This document shows, in pieces, positions 93 to 55,062 of a stretch of DNA of 64,000 nucleotides (the first letter of the stretch is position 1; the number at the start of each line of letters is the position of its first letter). The DNA comes from Pseudonocardia hierapolitana. GTDB taxonomy: Bacteria > Actinomycetota > Actinomycetes > Mycobacteriales > Pseudonocardiaceae. The stretch covers positions 7,254,001 through 7,318,000 of the forward strand of contig NZ_VIWU01000001.1 in NCBI RefSeq assembly GCF_007994075.1, given 5' to 3'. Under the pieces are notes generated by a model that worked only from the letters and a program-made list of their open reading frames with translations, was not told the DNA's origin and made no database searches. Both the position numbers and the translations under genes were made by a program.

Positions 93-2258
93 ATGACCCA
101 GCCCGCCGCCGACCCGATCCACCTGCGCGCGGCCGGGGTGAGCGTGATCGTCGTGACCGACGGCGGACGGTTGCCCGCCGTGCTGCACTGGGGAGCCGAC
201 CTCGGCGAGCTGACCGCCGCCGACCTCGCTCAGCTCGCCGGCGCAGGCGTGCCCGCCGCCGTCCCGAACGACCTCGACCAGGTCACGCGGGCCGGGATCG
301 TCGCCGAGCACGCCGCGGGCTGGAACGGCAGGCCGGGGCTCGCCGGGCAGCGTGCGGGCCGGGCGTGGTCGCCGCTCTTCACGCTCACCGACCTCGCGGT
401 GGAGCACACCGCCGGTGGTGGCGGCCGGGTGCGGGCCTCCGGCCGGGACGGCGAGGCCGGCCTGGCCGTGCACCTCGAGCTGGAGCTGTCGCCGTCGGGC
501 GTGCTGCGCCAGCGCGGCACCGTGGAGGTCCCCGCCGAGGCGGACGCCGAGCCGTTCGTGGTCGACGGGCTCGGGCTGACGCTGCCGGTGCCGCCGGTCG
601 CCACCGAGCTGTTCGACCTGGCCGGGAGGTGGGGCCGCGAGCGCGCCCCGCAGCGGGCCCCGTTCGTCGTCGGCGTCCACTCGCGGGAGAACCGTCGCGG
701 CCGCACCGGCCCGGACGCCCCGCTGATCCTCGCCGCGGGCACGGCGGGCTTCGGCTTCTCCGAGGGCGAGGTCTGGGCGATCCACGTGGCCTGGAGCGGC
801 AACCACGTGACCTACGCCGAGCGCCTCTCCACCGGAGCCGCCGTGCTGGGCGGTGGCGAGCTGCTGCTCCCCGGCGAGGTGCTCCTGCGGCCGGGCGAGT
901 CCTACACCGGTCCCTGGGTCTACGCCGCGCACTCCACCGGCGGCCTGGACGACATCGCGGCCCGGTTCCACAGGCTGCTGCGCGACCGCCCGCACCACCC
1001 GGCCAATCCGCGTCCCGTGGTGATGAACACCTGGGAGGCCGTCTACTTCGACCACGACCTCGACCGGCTCGTCGAGCTCGCCCGGGTCGGCGCCGACGTC
1101 GGCGTGGAGCGCTACGTGCTCGACGACGGCTGGTTCCGCCACCGCCGCGACGACAGCGCAGGGCTGGGCGACTGGTACGTCGACGAGGGCGTCTGGCCGC
1201 AGGGCCTGCACCCGCTGGTCGAGGAGGTGCGGCAGCGGGGCATGGAGTTCGGGCTGTGGGTGGAGCCGGAGATGGTGAACCCCGACTCCGACCTCGCCCG
1301 CGCCCACCCCGACTGGATCCTGCAGACCGGCGGGCGGATGCCGATCCCGTCCCGGCAGCAGCAGGTGCTCGACCTCGCGCACCCGGATGCCTACGCGTAC
1401 ATCCTGGAGCGGCTCGACGCGCTGCTCAGCGAGTACCCGATCAGCTACCTGAAGTGGGACCACAACCGCGACCTGGTCGACGCGGGGCACGGCCCACTCG
1501 GGGTGCCCGGCGTGCACGCCCAGACCCGCGCCGTCTACCGGTTGATCGACGAGGTGCGGGCCCGCCACCCCGGCGTCGAGATCGAGTCCTGCTCGTCCGG
1601 TGGCCTGCGCGTGGACCTGGAGATCCTGGAGCGCACGGACCGGATCTGGGGCAGCGACATGACCGACCCCCTCGAGCGCCAGCAGATCCAGCGCTGGACC
1701 GCGCAGCTGATCCCGCCCGAGCTGGTCGGCTCGCACGTCGCCGCCCCGCGCTCCCACTCGACCGCGCGCACCCACGACCTGTCCTTCCGCGCGGGCACCG
1801 CGCTCTTCGGCTCGTTCGGCATCGAGTGGGACGTCACGACCACCGGCCCGGAGGAGCGCAAGGAGCTCGCCGCGTGGGTGCAGCTCTACAAGGACGTCCG
1901 CGGCCTGATCCACACCGGCACGATGGTCCGCGCCGACCAGCACGACCCGTCGTTCGCCCTGCACGGCGCCGTCGCGCCCGACCGCGCCGACGCGCTCTAC
2001 GCGCTGGTCCAGCTGGCCACGCCGCTGACTTCGGTGCCGGGTCAGCTGCGGCTGCCCGGCCTCGACCCGGACCGGCGCTACCGGGTCACGGTCCAACCGC
2101 CCGGGGACCGCCCGGCGTTGCGGCAGCGACAGGCGCCGGACTGGGTCGCCCGCGGGGTCGAGCTCCCCGGCCGCGTGCTCGCCGAGGCCGGTCTGCGTGC
2201 CCCGGCGCTGAACCCCGAGCAGCTGCTGCTCCTGCGCGTGACGGACGTGACGTCATGA
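93..2258 (+). CDS. Alpha-galactosidase, glycoside hydrolase family 36
   Basis: This 721-residue enzyme should hydrolyse terminal alpha-1,6-galactose from melibiose, raffinose and related sugars in the cytoplasm, since no signal peptide is present. The GH36 layout is clear: an N-terminal beta-supersandwich, then a TIM barrel holding the nucleophile motif KWDHNR (Asp near residue 456) and the acid/base motif SDMTD (Asp near 522), with CSSGG just before the latter. Length matches the 700-750 residues usual for bacterial GH36. The ATG at 93 follows a GGAG-like site. The stop overlaps the next start as ATGA, so it is the first gene of a translationally coupled transport operon. Substrate preference is inferred from the family. 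Confidence 0.93.
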   Translation: MTQPAADPIHLRAAGVSVIVVTDGGRLPAVLHWGADLGELTAADLAQLAGAGVPAAVPNDLDQVTRAGIVAEHAAGWNGRPGLAGQRAGRAWSPLFTLTDLAVEHTAGGGGRVRASGRDGEAGLAVHLELELSPSGVLRQRGTVEVPAEADAEPFVVDGLGLTLPVPPVATELFDLAGRWGRERAPQRAPFVVGVHSRENRRGRTGPDAPLILAAGTAGFGFSEGEVWAIHVAWSGNHVTYAERLSTGAAVLGGGELLLPGEVLLRPGESYTGPWVYAAHSTGGLDDIAARFHRLLRDRPHHPANPRPVVMNTWEAVYFDHDLDRLVELARVGADVGVERYVLDDGWFRHRRDDSAGLGDWYVDEGVWPQGLHPLVEEVRQRGMEFGLWVEPEMVNPDSDLARAHPDWILQTGGRMPIPSRQQQVLDLAHPDAYAYILERLDALLSEYPISYLKWDHNRDLVDAGHGPLGVPGVHAQTRAVYRLIDEVRARHPGVEIESCSSGGLRVDLEILERTDRIWGSDMTDPLERQQIQRWTAQLIPPELVGSHVAAPRSHSTARTHDLSFRAGTALFGSFGIEWDVTTTGPEERKELAAWVQLYKDVRGLIHTGTMVRADQHDPSFALHGAVAPDRADALYALVQLATPLTSVPGQLRLPGLDPDRRYRVTVQPPGDRPALRQRQAPDWVARGVELPGRVLAEAGLRAPALNPEQLLLLRVTDVTS

Positions 2259-3193
2259 CCACGACGGCCGTGCCCGCCGCGGGCGCCCCCGCTTCCGGCG
2301 CCCCCGCGATCGCGCGCCGGGCGAGCTCGAACCGCGAGACCTGGGTCGCGCTGGGCTTCATCCTCCCGACGGTCTTCGGGTTCGTCGTGTTCTACCTCTG
2401 GCCGTCCCTGCGCGGGCTGGGGCTGAGCCTCACCGACTACCAGTTCTTCTCCGACACCTCGTTCGTCGGGCTCGCCAACTACCAGCGGCTGCTCACCGAC
2501 GAGACGTTCTGGAACGCCATGCTGGTGACGGTCTGGTACGTCGTGCTCAACATCGGATTCCAGACCGTGCTGGCCGTCCTGCTCGCGGTCCTGCTGCACC
2601 GGCTCACCCGCTCGGTCGTGATCCGCGGGCTCGTGCTGCTGCCCTACCTGGTGGCCAACGTCGTGGTCGCGCTGCTGTGGTTCTGGATGCTCGACGCGCA
2701 AATCGGGATCGTGAACCAGGTCCTGTCCTGGTTCGGGATCGGCCCGATCTCCTTCTTCGGCAGCGAGTCGTGGGCCATCCCGACGATCGCGTTCGTCAAC
2801 ACGTGGCGCCACCTCGGCTACACCGCGCTGCTGATCTTCGCGGGGCTGGTGATGATCCCGCGGACCCTCTACGAGGCAGGCCGCGTGGACGGCGCGAGCG
2901 AGTGGCAGATGTTCTGGCGGATCACCCTGCCGCTGCTGCGTCCGGTGCTCGCACTGGTGCTGGTGATCACCGTCGTCGGCTCGTTCCAGGTGTTCGACAC
3001 GGTCGCGGTCACCACGATGGGCGGGCCGGCCGACGCGTCCCGGGTGATCCAGTACTACATCTTCGACCTCGCCTTCGAGCGTCTGGACTACGGCTACGCC
3101 TCGGCGGTGTCGGTCGTCCTGCTCGTGATCCTGTCCGTCATCGCCTTCGTGCAGCTGCGGCTGATGCGGGCGAACGAGTCGGACCTCGCCTGA
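2255..3193 (+). CDS. Sugar ABC transporter permease, MalF/UgpA type
   Basis: A 312-residue inner-membrane permease of the carbohydrate uptake CUT1 class. It has a short cytoplasmic N-terminus, six predicted membrane spans, and near the C-terminus the EAA loop (EAGRVDGASEWQMFWRITLP) that docks on the ATPase. The ATG overlaps the alpha-galactosidase stop by four bases (ATGA), giving tight coupling. It would pair with the permease that follows. No ATPase gene is in the cluster, so a shared MsiK-type ATPase encoded elsewhere is likely, as is common for actinobacterial CUT1 systems. Confidence 0.92.
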   Translation: MTTTAVPAAGAPASGAPAIARRASSNRETWVALGFILPTVFGFVVFYLWPSLRGLGLSLTDYQFFSDTSFVGLANYQRLLTDETFWNAMLVTVWYVVLNIGFQTVLAVLLAVLLHRLTRSVVIRGLVLLPYLVANVVVALLWFWMLDAQIGIVNQVLSWFGIGPISFFGSESWAIPTIAFVNTWRHLGYTALLIFAGLVMIPRTLYEAGRVDGASEWQMFWRITLPLLRPVLALVLVITVVGSFQVFDTVAVTTMGGPADASRVIQYYIFDLAFERLDYGYASAVSVVLLVILSVIAFVQLRLMRANESDLA

Positions 3194-28324: not shown

Positions 28325-28428
28325 CTTCGGTGGCGCCGCACATTGTGCGGGCCCTGCAAATGCTGGGGCGGCGCCTTCGGTGGCGCCGCGCATCGTGCGG
28401 GGCCGCCCCTCACGCCTCAAGGGCGCCT
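28325..28428 (+). repeat. Left part of intergenic repeat copy A, interrupted by the IS110 element
   Basis: This stretch matches 54475-54604 of copy B except for about 25 extra bases in B. It holds two tandem variants of TGGCGCCGCGCATCGTGCGG, each able to form a hairpin, and the shared segment GGGCCCTGCAAATGCTGGGG. It ends in CTCAAGGGCGC-CT, the left half of the IS insertion site. Confidence 0.85.
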
Positions 28429-28445
28429 CAGTGTCAGGCTGAGGG

Positions 28446-28640
28446 CTGCTGCTGTTGATCGGCAGCGGTTAGGGTCCGGCCCTGATCACGTGGTGACTCT
28501 CAAGGGCGCTGCCACCGTTGGTTGGCTTGCCGCAGAACTGTCGAGCGTGGTCAGGGTTCGGGCCGGCTGGCCTGACTTGATAGAAGCGTGGGCTAGACGC
28601 CATCCCCTCGACTGAGGTGTGTCCGACCAGCCGACCCGAT
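28446..28640 (+). ncRNA. Predicted bridge RNA of the IS110 element
   Basis: Three structural parts occur in the order known for IS621. First a 5' stem-loop (28449-28454 with 28463-28468). Next a target-binding loop closed by an 11-bp stem (28480-28490 with 28546-28556, one G-U), with an apical hairpin at 28511-28526. Last a donor-binding loop closed by a perfect 7-bp stem (28564-28570 with 28627-28633), with hairpin GGC-TAGAC-GCC at 28591-28601. Guides: left target CTCAAGGGCGC (28499-28509, identical to 28416-28426); right target GCCGCAG (28529-28535, complement of core plus GCGGC); left donor ATAGAAGC (28580-28587, identical to 29732-29739); right donor ACTGAG (28611-28616, complement of CTCAGT at 28427-28432). 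RNA ends are estimates. Confidence 0.82.
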
Positions 28641-28686
28641 CCGGATGCCTGTCTCCTGATCTGGAAGGAAGGACACCCGGACGTTC

Positions 28687-29730
28687 ATGGTGGTCATTGG
28701 GATCGATCCGCACAAGCGGACCCACACCGCGGTCGCCGTCGACGAGGTGGGGCGCAAGCTGGGCCAGGTGACGGTCGCCTCCACCCCGGAGGGGTGGTTG
28801 CGGTTGTGGGCGTGGGCGGGCGGGTTTGGGCCGGACCGGCGGTGGGCGGTCGAGGACGGCCGCGGGGTGGCCGGGCGGCTGGTGCGCACCCTGATCGGGC
28901 ACGGCGCGAGCGTGGTGTGGGTGCCGCCCAAGCTGATGGCCCAGAGCCGGGCCAGCGCGCGCACGCGCGGCAAGTCCGACCCGATCGACGCGCTGGCCAT
29001 CGCCCGCGCCGCGCTGCGCGAGCCGGACTTGCCGGCCGCGCACCTGGATGAGGTGGCCGCTGATCTGCGGCTGCTGACCGACCGGCGCGAGCAGCTGGTC
29101 AAGTGGCGCACCCAGACGATCAACCAGCTGCGCTGGCACCTGCACGACCTGGACCCCGGCCTGGACCCCGGCGCCGGGCGGTTGAACAGTGCCCGTCAGC
29201 TGGACCGGCTGACCGCCGGGCTGGAGGCGCTGCCGGCGAGCGTGCGCCGCGACCTGGCGCTGGAGCTGGTCGGCGAGATCCGTCGGCTGCGCGAACAGAT
29301 CCGCCGGTTGGACAAGCAGCTGGGCGAGCTGGTCGTCCCGCTGGCCCCGACCCTGCTGGCCATCGTCGGGGTCAACGTGGTCACCGCCGCGAAGATCATC
29401 GGTGAGGTCGCTGGGATCTCCCGGTTCCGGTCCGCGGCCGCGTTTGCCATGCACGCCGGTGCCGCCCCGATCCCGGTCTGGAGCAGCAACCGGCCCCAGG
29501 TGCGGCTCAACCGCGGCGGCAACCGGCAACTCAACGCCTGCCTGCATCGCATCGTCATCGCCCAGCTCAGCCACAAACCCGAGGCGCGGGCCTGGCGCGA
29601 ACGCTGGACCCAGCGCCGACCCAACGCCACCGGCAAGGCGGCGCTGCGCGCCCTCAAACGCCACCTCGCCGACGTCGTCTACCACGCCCTGCTCACCGAC
29701 CACCGCCGCCAACTCCCAGCGACCGCTTGA
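28687..29730 (+). CDS. IS110-family transposase (bridge-RNA-guided recombinase)
   Basis: A 347-residue recombinase. The N-terminal RuvC-like domain has the DEDD set D7 (GIDPHK), E56 (VEDGRG), D98 and D101 (KSDPIDA); the spacings 49, 42 and 3 match those I recall for IS621. A coiled-coil linker lies at ~190-220. The C-terminal Tnp domain has LLAIVGVNVVTAAKIIGEV and VWSSNRPQVRLNRGGNRQL, where Ser266 or Ser267 should be the covalent nucleophile. ATG 28687 follows GGAAGGAAGGACACC. The stop codon overlaps a TTGACA -35 hexamer used after circularisation. The ORF looks intact, so the element may be active. Confidence 0.95.
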   Translation: MVVIGIDPHKRTHTAVAVDEVGRKLGQVTVASTPEGWLRLWAWAGGFGPDRRWAVEDGRGVAGRLVRTLIGHGASVVWVPPKLMAQSRASARTRGKSDPIDALAIARAALREPDLPAAHLDEVAADLRLLTDRREQLVKWRTQTINQLRWHLHDLDPGLDPGAGRLNSARQLDRLTAGLEALPASVRRDLALELVGEIRRLREQIRRLDKQLGELVVPLAPTLLAIVGVNVVTAAKIIGEVAGISRFRSAAAFAMHAGAAPIPVWSSNRPQVRLNRGGNRQLNACLHRIVIAQLSHKPEARAWRERWTQRRPNATGKAALRALKRHLADVVYHALLTDHRRQLPATA

Positions 29731-29732
29731 CA
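29727..29732 (+). promoter_or_regulatory. -35 half of the IS110 circle-junction promoter
   Basis: TTGACA overlaps the transposase stop. When right and left ends are joined over one CT core, 17 bp separate it from CAGGCT (28435-28440). Transcription would start near 28447, at the base of the first bridge-RNA stem-loop. Confidence 0.65.
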
Positions 29733-29741
29733 TAGAAGCTT

Positions 29742-30191
29742 CTGCGGCGTCGCTGCGCGATCGCTGCGCGACCCTTGACCCGTGAGCCTCTGCGGCCCCT
29801 CCGGGCAGCACGACGCGGGCAGGCCAGGGGCCTGCCCGGAGGGCGCGCGGCGACACCGAAGGCGGTCCGACGGCCGTGATCGAGGCTTCGGCCCGAAACG
29901 GGCGAAAACGACACGGGAACGCGCCGAACTGCCGATCATGCCGCCCGTGGCGCCGCCACAGGCGACTTCACACACCCAGTACGGACTTCACACAAGGCCG
30001 GCCTTGTGTGAAGTGGCCATTGGGTGTGTGAAGTGACTGTCGGTGGGGAGACAGGGCTCTGGTGATCGGCCCGAGGAGTGCATCAGCGTCTCCGCCGAGT
30101 CCGTGGTGTGCTGATCGGAATGATCTCCGCAGCTCACGCGCCCGTTCTCGGCCCACGCACCCCGTCAACCGGGTGCGTGGGCCGACACGGG
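29742..30191 (+). repeat. Right part of intergenic repeat copy A
   Basis: About 450 bp of non-coding sequence that aligns almost base for base with 54603-55062. Modules in order: GCGGCGTCGCTGCGCGATCG; hairpin GGGCAGGCC-AGG-GGCCTGCCC (29817-29837); a segment around AAAACGACACGGGAACGCGC; the 70-bp concentric palindrome (29965-30034); and a hairpin CCCACGCACCC/GGGTGCGTGGG near 30159-30182. No ORF is conserved between the copies, so it is not a decayed gene as far as I can see. Confidence 0.85.
29965..30034. repeat. 70-bp concentric palindrome in repeat copy A
   Basis: An inner perfect 30-bp palindrome, ACTTCACACAAGGCC joined to its complement (29985-30014), is nested in an outer inverted repeat ACTTCACACACCCA (29965-29978) and TGGGTGTGTGAAGT (30021-30034). 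Both share the centre 29999.5. The arrangement presents four ACTTCACACA boxes, two on each strand. Confidence 0.9.
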
Positions 30192-30220
30192 TTGCGCGAG
30201 CAAGGCCAGGTCGAACAGCT

Positions 30221-54474: not shown

Positions 54475-55062
54475 GGAGCGGTGGCGCCGCGCATCGTGCG
54501 GGCCCTGCAAATGCTGGGGCAGGGCCTTCGGTCGCACCCCTCGACCAGGGCCTTCGGTGGCGCCGCGCATTCTGCGGGGCCGCCCCTCAGAGCTCAAGGG
54601 CGCCTGCGGCGTCGCTGCGCGATCGCTGCGCGACCCTTGACCGCTGAGCCTCTGCGACCCCTCCGGGCAGCACTACGCGGGCAGGCCGGGGGCCTGCCCG
54701 GAGGGCGCGCGGCGCCACCGAAGGCGGCCCGACGGGCATGATCGAGGCCTCGGCGCGACAACGGTCGAAAACGACACGGGAACGCGCCGAACCGCCGATC
54801 ATGCCGCCCGTGGCGCCGCCAACAGCCGACTTCACACACCCAGTACGGACTTCACACAAGGCCGGCCTTGTGTGAAGTGGCCACTGGGTGTGTGAAGTGG
54901 CTGTCGGCGGGGGCGAGGGCTCTGGTGATCGGCCCGAGGTGTACATCAGCGTCTCCGCCGAGGTCCGTGGTGTGCTGATCGGAGCGATCTGCGCCGCTCA
55001 CGCGCCCGTTCTCGGCTCATGCGCCCCGTCGACCAGGTGCGTGGGCCGCGACGGGGCGCAAG
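54475..55062 (+). repeat. Intergenic repeat copy B, uninterrupted
   Basis: This ~590-bp non-coding element matches copy A (28325-28428 plus 29742-30191) over its whole length, with differences scattered at roughly one in ten to fifteen bases and about 25 extra bases near 54523-54550. Across the IS110 target it reads CTCAAGGGCGCCTGCGGC without a break, so it is the empty site. Both copies stand between housekeeping genes. Confidence 0.88.
54829..54898. repeat. 70-bp concentric palindrome in repeat copy B
   Basis: Inner perfect 30-bp palindrome at 54849-54878 and outer 14-bp arms at 54829-54842 and 54885-54898, all centred on 54863.5. The palindromic arms are identical to copy A, although bases between and around them differ. 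That suggests selection or gene conversion on the dyad. Confidence 0.9.

Follow-up and report, generated by a model that had tools for sequence, protein, structure and literature searches.

The transposon locus

The window, i.e., the whole 64-kb stretch of DNA that was analysed, corresponds to positions 7,254,001-7,318,000 of the 8.86 Mb single-contig genome of Pseudonocardia hierapolitana and contains an intact IS110-group element at 28427-29742. Including this one, four near-identical copies of the element occur genome-wide, and seven more distant relatives with 33-37% identity to the window transposase were found at other loci. The transposase gene (28687-29730, + strand) is intact and encodes 347 aa, as read from its open reading frame and domain matches. 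The protein scores above the cut-offs of PF01548 (98.8 bits, cut-off 29), PF02371 (53.6, cut-off 21.3), and NF033542 (183.1, cut-off 140), and phmmer relates it to the transposases of IS621 (E 1.9e-9) and ISCro4 (E 3.9e-9). The combination of a long non-coding left end (LE, 28428-28686, + strand) and a short right end (RE, 29731-29741, + strand, 11 nt) is as known for the IS110 group.

D7, E56, D98, and D101, assigned here by ourselves to the DEDD residues, are invariant across 12 aligned transposases. The candidate for the catalytic serine is S266, which holds the position given by the G--P----S motif of PMC11187229 and is followed by S, not G. At the serine position, as placed here, Thr is found in the L083 transposase, which has at least seven copies in genome G087, and Ala in the L088 transposase with two copies in G275; this is odd if both elements are active.

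Insertion site and target repeat

In the alignment of the four genomic copies, the identical left end, including the whole LE, starts at 28427 and the right end stops at 29741. All four copies are bordered by TCAAGGGCGC, which is also present in 34 unoccupied sites. In the window, the left target half CTCAAGGGCGC lies within the host repeat at 28416-28426 (+ strand), and the core C with the right target half (TGCGGC) at 29742-29748 (+ strand) follows the left half without interruption in unoccupied sites. The genome contains the empty junction TCAAGGGCGC-CT-N-CGGCGTCG at 34 places, and the control at none. Before insertion, the left half therefore ran through a single C into the right half, and there is no target duplication, as the joined flanks equal the unoccupied repeat with a single C. 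A mutated right core in the window copy, suspected from the flank alignment, was dropped because the unoccupied sites put the right end at 29741.

With a 102-base query over the repeat, at least 40 genome matches were obtained, a lower bound given that 40 of the 121 candidates were scored, and some of these are the flanks of occupied copies. One unoccupied exact target site (0 mismatches) is situated in the window itself at 54593-54610 (+ strand); in the window search with up to three mismatches, the chance mean was 0.39 and 38 of 100 shuffles contained at least one site. Judged by its sequence, the target is a palindromic host repeat, and the target site appears to lie between genes, as read from open frames only. 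The preliminary description had named an intergenic repeat as the natural target, which, within this reading of the open frames, agrees with the 34 unoccupied junctions and with the location of all four copies in the same repeat. Exact copies of the repeat motif number 34 in the own genome, 33 in G169, and 17 in G307, and the motif was found in 94 of 390 family genomes.

The target repeat often occurs in inverted pairs 609-657 bp across, resembling a MITE-like unit (seven units aligned). Most of these units carry the palindrome ACTTCACACAAGGCCGGCCTTGTGTGAAGT, for which 31 genome places were found with at most three mismatches. Inverted-pair repeats are located in the window at 28360-28427, 29742-30220, and 54593-54880, and at loci L013, L016, L028, L030, L038, and L060.

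Architecture of the predicted bridge RNA

The predicted bridge RNA, with putative ends at 28446 and 28640 (+ strand), folds alone into three domains, i.e., a 5' stem-loop (28446-28468), a target-binding loop with its stem (28473-28564), and a donor-binding loop with its stem (28565-28634), all on the + strand. These domains correspond to helix 1, helices 2-3, and helix 4, respectively, of a structure written by hand for nine RNAs, and their order, a 5' stem-loop followed by two internal loops with the target loop first, matches the IS621 type. The stem-loop and the two internal loops that had been described for the left end are thus present both in the fold of 28446-28640 and in the nine-RNA structure. 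Folding of 28427-28686 yielded -121.4 kcal/mol (z -2.42), a modest signal when taken alone, with 4 of 200 shuffles being equal or better. In the nine RNAs 97.5% of the cells of the hand-written structure are paired, compared to a maximum of 43.6% in slid versions, a control that favours this structure due to its partial derivation from the same nine sequences. Six pairs are changed on both sides, a number reached by none of 500 shuffles (mean 2.5). RNAalifold proposed that the donor-guide region pairs with the initial 11 bases of the LE; this pairing was discarded since these bases lie upstream of the presumed transcript start.

A covariance model was built from the nine close RNAs; its match at 28448-28634 in the window (194 bits) is that of a training member. 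Outside the training set, L069 scored 178 bits, L087 98, L088 97, and L090 68, with weaker scores for others. The E-values run from 1e-23 for L087 to 3e-12 for L092, and noise sets in at about 0.02 and above. At E <= 0.001 the model matches 38 of the 390 family genomes, the own genome counted. A search of Rfam 15 gave no usable match, the single miRNA match at E 1 being far below the gathering score. Four other IS110-type loci of the genome (L005-L008) are weak matches to the RNA model with E-values of 0.002-0.011, near noise. In L069 of P. kunmingensis (1417-3000), a distance of 1.4 kb separates the end of the bridge RNA from the transposase downstream, and the intervening sequence, which is absent from close relatives, looks like something inserted.

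Both internal loops contain guides. The left target guide (LTG) CTCAAGGGCGC at 28499-28509 matches the left target at 28416-28426 in 11 out of 11 positions, and the right target guide (RTG) GCCGCAG at 28529-28535 is the reverse complement of CTGCGGC at 29742-29748 (7/7). In the donor loop, the left donor guide (LDG) ATAGAAGC at 28580-28587 equals the right end at 29732-29739 (8/8), and the right donor guide (RDG) ACTGAG at 28611-28616 is the reverse complement of CTCAGT at 28427-28432 (6/6); all four guides are on the + strand. Past the LTG, the next guide base is a U, which faces the G of the core C pair. The four guide matches given in the preliminary description were all recovered, as was the U-G wobble that it had noted at the core C. 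The variable base N of the repeat is situated inside the RTG, which calls for G. This base is G in all four occupied sites versus 14 of the 34 intact sites, indicating a borderline preference (Fisher p 0.041).

Covariation of guides and targets

When 390 family genomes were searched at the protein level, 37 of them, the own genome counted, had matches with E <= 1e-60. Alignment of nine close left ends revealed a conserved scaffold, variation on both sides of the first loop and a nearly fixed donor loop. For eight elements with transposases 69-100% identical to that of the window, the guides shift with the flanks. In an 8 x 8 test, in which guides and targets were read from the loci and two LTG registers were allowed for own as well as foreign pairings, own targets reached 7-9 of 9 for the LTG and 5-6 of 6 for the RTG, compared to off-diagonal means of 4.73 and 3.09, respectively. 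The total for the own assignment is 107 versus a permutation mean of 68.1, and this assignment is the unique best of 40,320. It is likewise the unique best of 362,880 after addition of a held-out ninth element, L069, which had been outside the covariance model and the first test. Besides L069, the 8 x 8 test omitted L086 as a near duplicate of L085, L169 as having no right end, and second targets of the same guides (L077, L074, and other copies). The eight elements are partly non-independent: L001 and L071 have a common LTG and repeat, L083 and L093 a common RTG, and L083 and L085 the eight matched LTG bases and the left target in common.

Scored singly, the LTG matched at 9 positions in 9, at 8 in 17, at 7 in 2, and at 6 in 1 of 29 copies, and the RTG at 6 positions in 6, at 5 in 19, at 4 in 1, and at 3 in 1 of the 27 copies with a right end. 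Weaker matches are given by the RTG of L076 (4/6) and the LTG of the decayed L169 (6/9). The LTG of L001 and L071 pairs in a register shifted by one base relative to the other elements, and all seven copies of G087 have an RTG mismatch at the target base that follows the core. Covariation with own targets or ends was read for LTG, RTG, and LDG.

In case of Amycolatopsis bartoniae (G169), a 73% identical element is associated with the same repeat motif and LTG and with an RTG calling for T; at the RTG variable base, T is present in 28 of 33 intact repeat sites of this genome. Its right junctions read CTTCGG in five of six copies and CTCGGC in L076. A decayed element fragment (L169) is located in the same repeat motif in G307. 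GAAAGCCACNTTCG occurs 655 times in G087, 296 times in G108, and 144 times in G145 (control 0), and also 128 times in G155, whose own element carries other guides. Altogether, the targets are abundant host repeats in five genomes, G000, G169, G087, G108, and G145.

The preliminary description had proposed to align left ends of homologues and to compare guides with flanks, and the guides indeed change together with the flanks. It had also named identical guides at unrelated targets as an argument against a bridge RNA. Such cases were sought, and four of four genome copies and five of six copies in Amycolatopsis bartoniae reside in the same repeat. The sixth, L074, lies outside the repeat, yet matches the guides with 8/9 and 5/6. 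The nearest counterexample is L235 of G155, where the right flank matches the RTG in 3/6 and the left flank the LTG in 8/9 positions.

The shared core

Comparison of the junctions of copies identifies C at 28427 (+ strand) as the shared core base, with the top-strand exchange probably directly after it. The base following C is T at the left junction in all of 29 copies, and T in 12, A in 8, G in 5, and C in 2 of 27 copies at the right junction. The 29 left ends were located by a motif that includes this T, and none of the 29 copies tried was lost thereby. G087 is illustrative: the unoccupied sites read CA in all 100 listed of 655, and the seven copies carry T on the left and A on the right. 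In 20 of the 27 copies the base after C is the one called for by the RTG, and all seven misses belong to G087. At the right end, L093 carries a G in place of the C of the other elements. A constant T on the left and a variable base on the right imply that the former is contributed by the element and the latter by the target, which places the crossover after C. Due to the CT at both junctions of the window copy, CT is the natural reading within the window; the CT core read previously was trimmed to a single C, visible only through relatives.

According to the accessible text of PMC11208158, top strands are cut after a CT core in IS621, CT cores are present in IS621 and its orthologues, and IS621 tolerates a change at the first core base and prefers T at the second. 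A CT core common to donor and target, as in the IS621 type, was not found here, the window target reading CT and the common base of the clade being only C. Considering these preferences, a non-CT core lowers the identity with IS621, not the mechanism. The CT at both window junctions and the cores of IS621 and orthologues (PMC11208158) would also suit a bridge RNA with an IS621-like CT core cut after T, if mismatch repair invariably returned the left junction to the donor T and the right junction to the target base. We regard this as rather unlikely: a cut after T would put the target base on the left top strand, but this strand has T in all 29 copies, even in those with another base on the right (A in 8, G in 5, and C in 2 of 27). 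A core of one C, with the crossover directly after it, is on the junction comparison the probable arrangement.

Donor guides and putative junction promoter

Out of 77 processed loci, right end and LDG were both found in 68, which include many copies or duplicates, and the heptamers match perfectly over seven bases in 64 of these. Among 17 distinct pair types, 14 are perfect and three have one mismatch. Because the search expression fixed part of the motif, the informative heptamer positions are the first, fourth, and seventh.

A candidate -35 box, TTGACA (29727-29732, + strand), overlaps the transposase stop codon, and a candidate -10 box, CAGGCT (28435-28440, + strand), is situated in the left end, both assigned by resemblance only. 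If the right end is joined to the left end, TTGACA is placed 17 nt before CAGGCT. Of 78 loci whose transposase stop could be read, copies and duplicates included, 75 have TTGACA within 40 nt of it. The joined ends of close relatives, rows with a mislocated left end excluded, carry CAGGGT, CAGCGT, CAGGTT, or CACGCT as -10 candidate, and TGGGGT in L071. By this arrangement, the joined ends may constitute an active promoter.

The left end could also do no more than attenuate the transposase mRNA or form its structured 5' untranslated region, with guide matches that are accidental or leftovers of insertion. The RNA does lie directly upstream of the transposase and would be part of its mRNA from a junction promoter, and PMC8450116, in its available part, reports that small RNAs and 5'-UTR structure control the ISPpu9 transposase. 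Guide bases, however, follow target bases while the scaffold around them stays fixed, and the donor guides follow the right end, which makes this explanation very improbable.

Sister elements at promoter-start sites

Sister elements comprise 12 copies 53-55% identical to the window transposase (L090, L091, L092, L095, L096, and L120-L126) and 10 copies 58-75% identical to L090 (L190, L191, L193, L194, L196-L198, L202, L205, and L206). These 22 were selected from 69 rows for having both junctions readable and a right end of AGGAG form. In all 22 selected copies, the right end consists of AGGAG plus four bases ending in AC, followed after exactly 2 nt by ATG or GTG, and these start codons open frames of at least 80 codons. 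In 21 of the 22, TANNNT and a further 3-6 nt form the end of the left flank; the distance from TANNNT to the start codon is 6 nt in 16 of the 21 and 5-8 nt in all 21. Left out were the copies of G026 and G544 (other sites), more distant rows, and six rows without a readable left end, which have a start codon at 2 nt in 6/6 cases, with a frame of 11 codons in L199. Also left out were L087, L088, and L119, with TANNNT on the left and without such a start codon on the right.

Inspected by eye and unscored, the sister LTG shows bases resembling TAGCGT or TACGGT, and the sister RTG shows the complement of GCATG. For one target gene, 19 uninterrupted orthologues were taken from 79 genomes with a match; 14 of them read TAGCGTGGCC-GC-ATG, i.e., the two flanks joined, and five are variants. 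From the spacing it appears that the sister target genes are leaderless and that AGGAG of the right end may serve as Shine-Dalgarno sequence. We are inclined to think, with some reserve, that one lineage was naturally reprogrammed between host palindromic repeats and the -10/start-codon junction of leaderless genes, with a one-C core sufficing, and that the sister element takes the promoter and gives a Shine-Dalgarno sequence.

TGTCGGTG-N8-TANNNT is present in several sister-clade targets (left flanks of L120, L123, L124, and L096); we take it to resemble the LexA-independent DNA-damage promoter motif of mycobacteria. Related elements have the recurrent flank GCACGCTCGCGG in G544 (L201, L207, and L210) and TCGCG or TCGTG in G026 (L192, L203, L208, L211, and L213), which apparently represent further reprogrammed site classes. 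IS900 inserts at start codons. None of the titles and abstracts found in the literature search dealt with leaderless-gene targeting by IS110, and start-codon targets are unmentioned in the accessible portion of PMC8141618 on IS900.

That the protein itself recognises palindromic repeats, with guides resembling targets through captured flanking sequence, would fit the clade copies of several hosts in abundant palindromic repeats, but is hardly credible given that the left guide and the right guide face each other across one internal loop and match different strands, that L074 is guide-matched outside the repeat, and that same-scaffold sister elements occupy non-palindromic promoter-start sites.

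Proposed mechanism and relation to known systems

The preliminary reading as an IS110 bridge RNA is supported by transposase family, architecture, covariation of target and donor guides, and unoccupied repeats. A bridge-RNA mechanism is therefore, on sequence grounds, very probable for the window element, and strong sequence evidence argues that the RNA steers its insertion site. The element would excise as a circle that joins RE to LE, so that TTGACA 17 nt before CAGGCT would act as promoter for expression of the RNA from about 28446. This RNA would bind the transposase, its target loop would pair with both strands of the palindromic repeat (LTG with the left half, RTG with core and right half) and its donor loop with the element's own junction. 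Catalysis by the transposase would then exchange strands beside the single common C, which is the presumed cut site, with no target base lost or duplicated.

By its sequence features, the window RNA joins the known bridge-RNA class with a core that differs from that of IS621. As in IS621, the RNA is situated in the long left end and has a 5' stem-loop, a target loop, and a donor loop, with split guides for both strands and REP or repeat targets (PMC11208160 and PMC11208158, parts available). IS621 also rebuilds a promoter across the joined ends, like the joined ends of the window element (PMC11208160, same restriction). Unlike IS621, the window element has a distant transposase (phmmer E 1.9e-9), a core of C instead of CT, an 11-nt right end, a candidate -35 box overlapping the transposase stop, and an actinobacterial host. 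The seekRNA of the IS110-type ISEc21 is alike with respect to the upstream non-coding region, an RNA whose short stretches match both target strands, the lack of target duplication, and natural redirection in its relative ISMch6, as given in the accessible text of PMC11187229. It differs in that donor guides were not found in that text and in that the window series comprises nine element-target pairs. ISPpu9, ISPpu10, and other REP-inserting elements share the insertion into REP elements, but differ in hosts and repeats, and the 2006 abstract names no RNA guide (PMC1525189, abstract). On the window element itself, no title or abstract was found in the literature search, ISfinder lying outside its scope.

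The close relatives form a natural reprogramming series, in which scaffold and donor loop hardly change and the target guides take many forms, with their targets known and empty sites available in the very same genomes. This allows direct tests of the guide rules and of the core requirement in an actinobacterial setting far from IS621. If only one core base is needed, the range of programmable sites would be wider.
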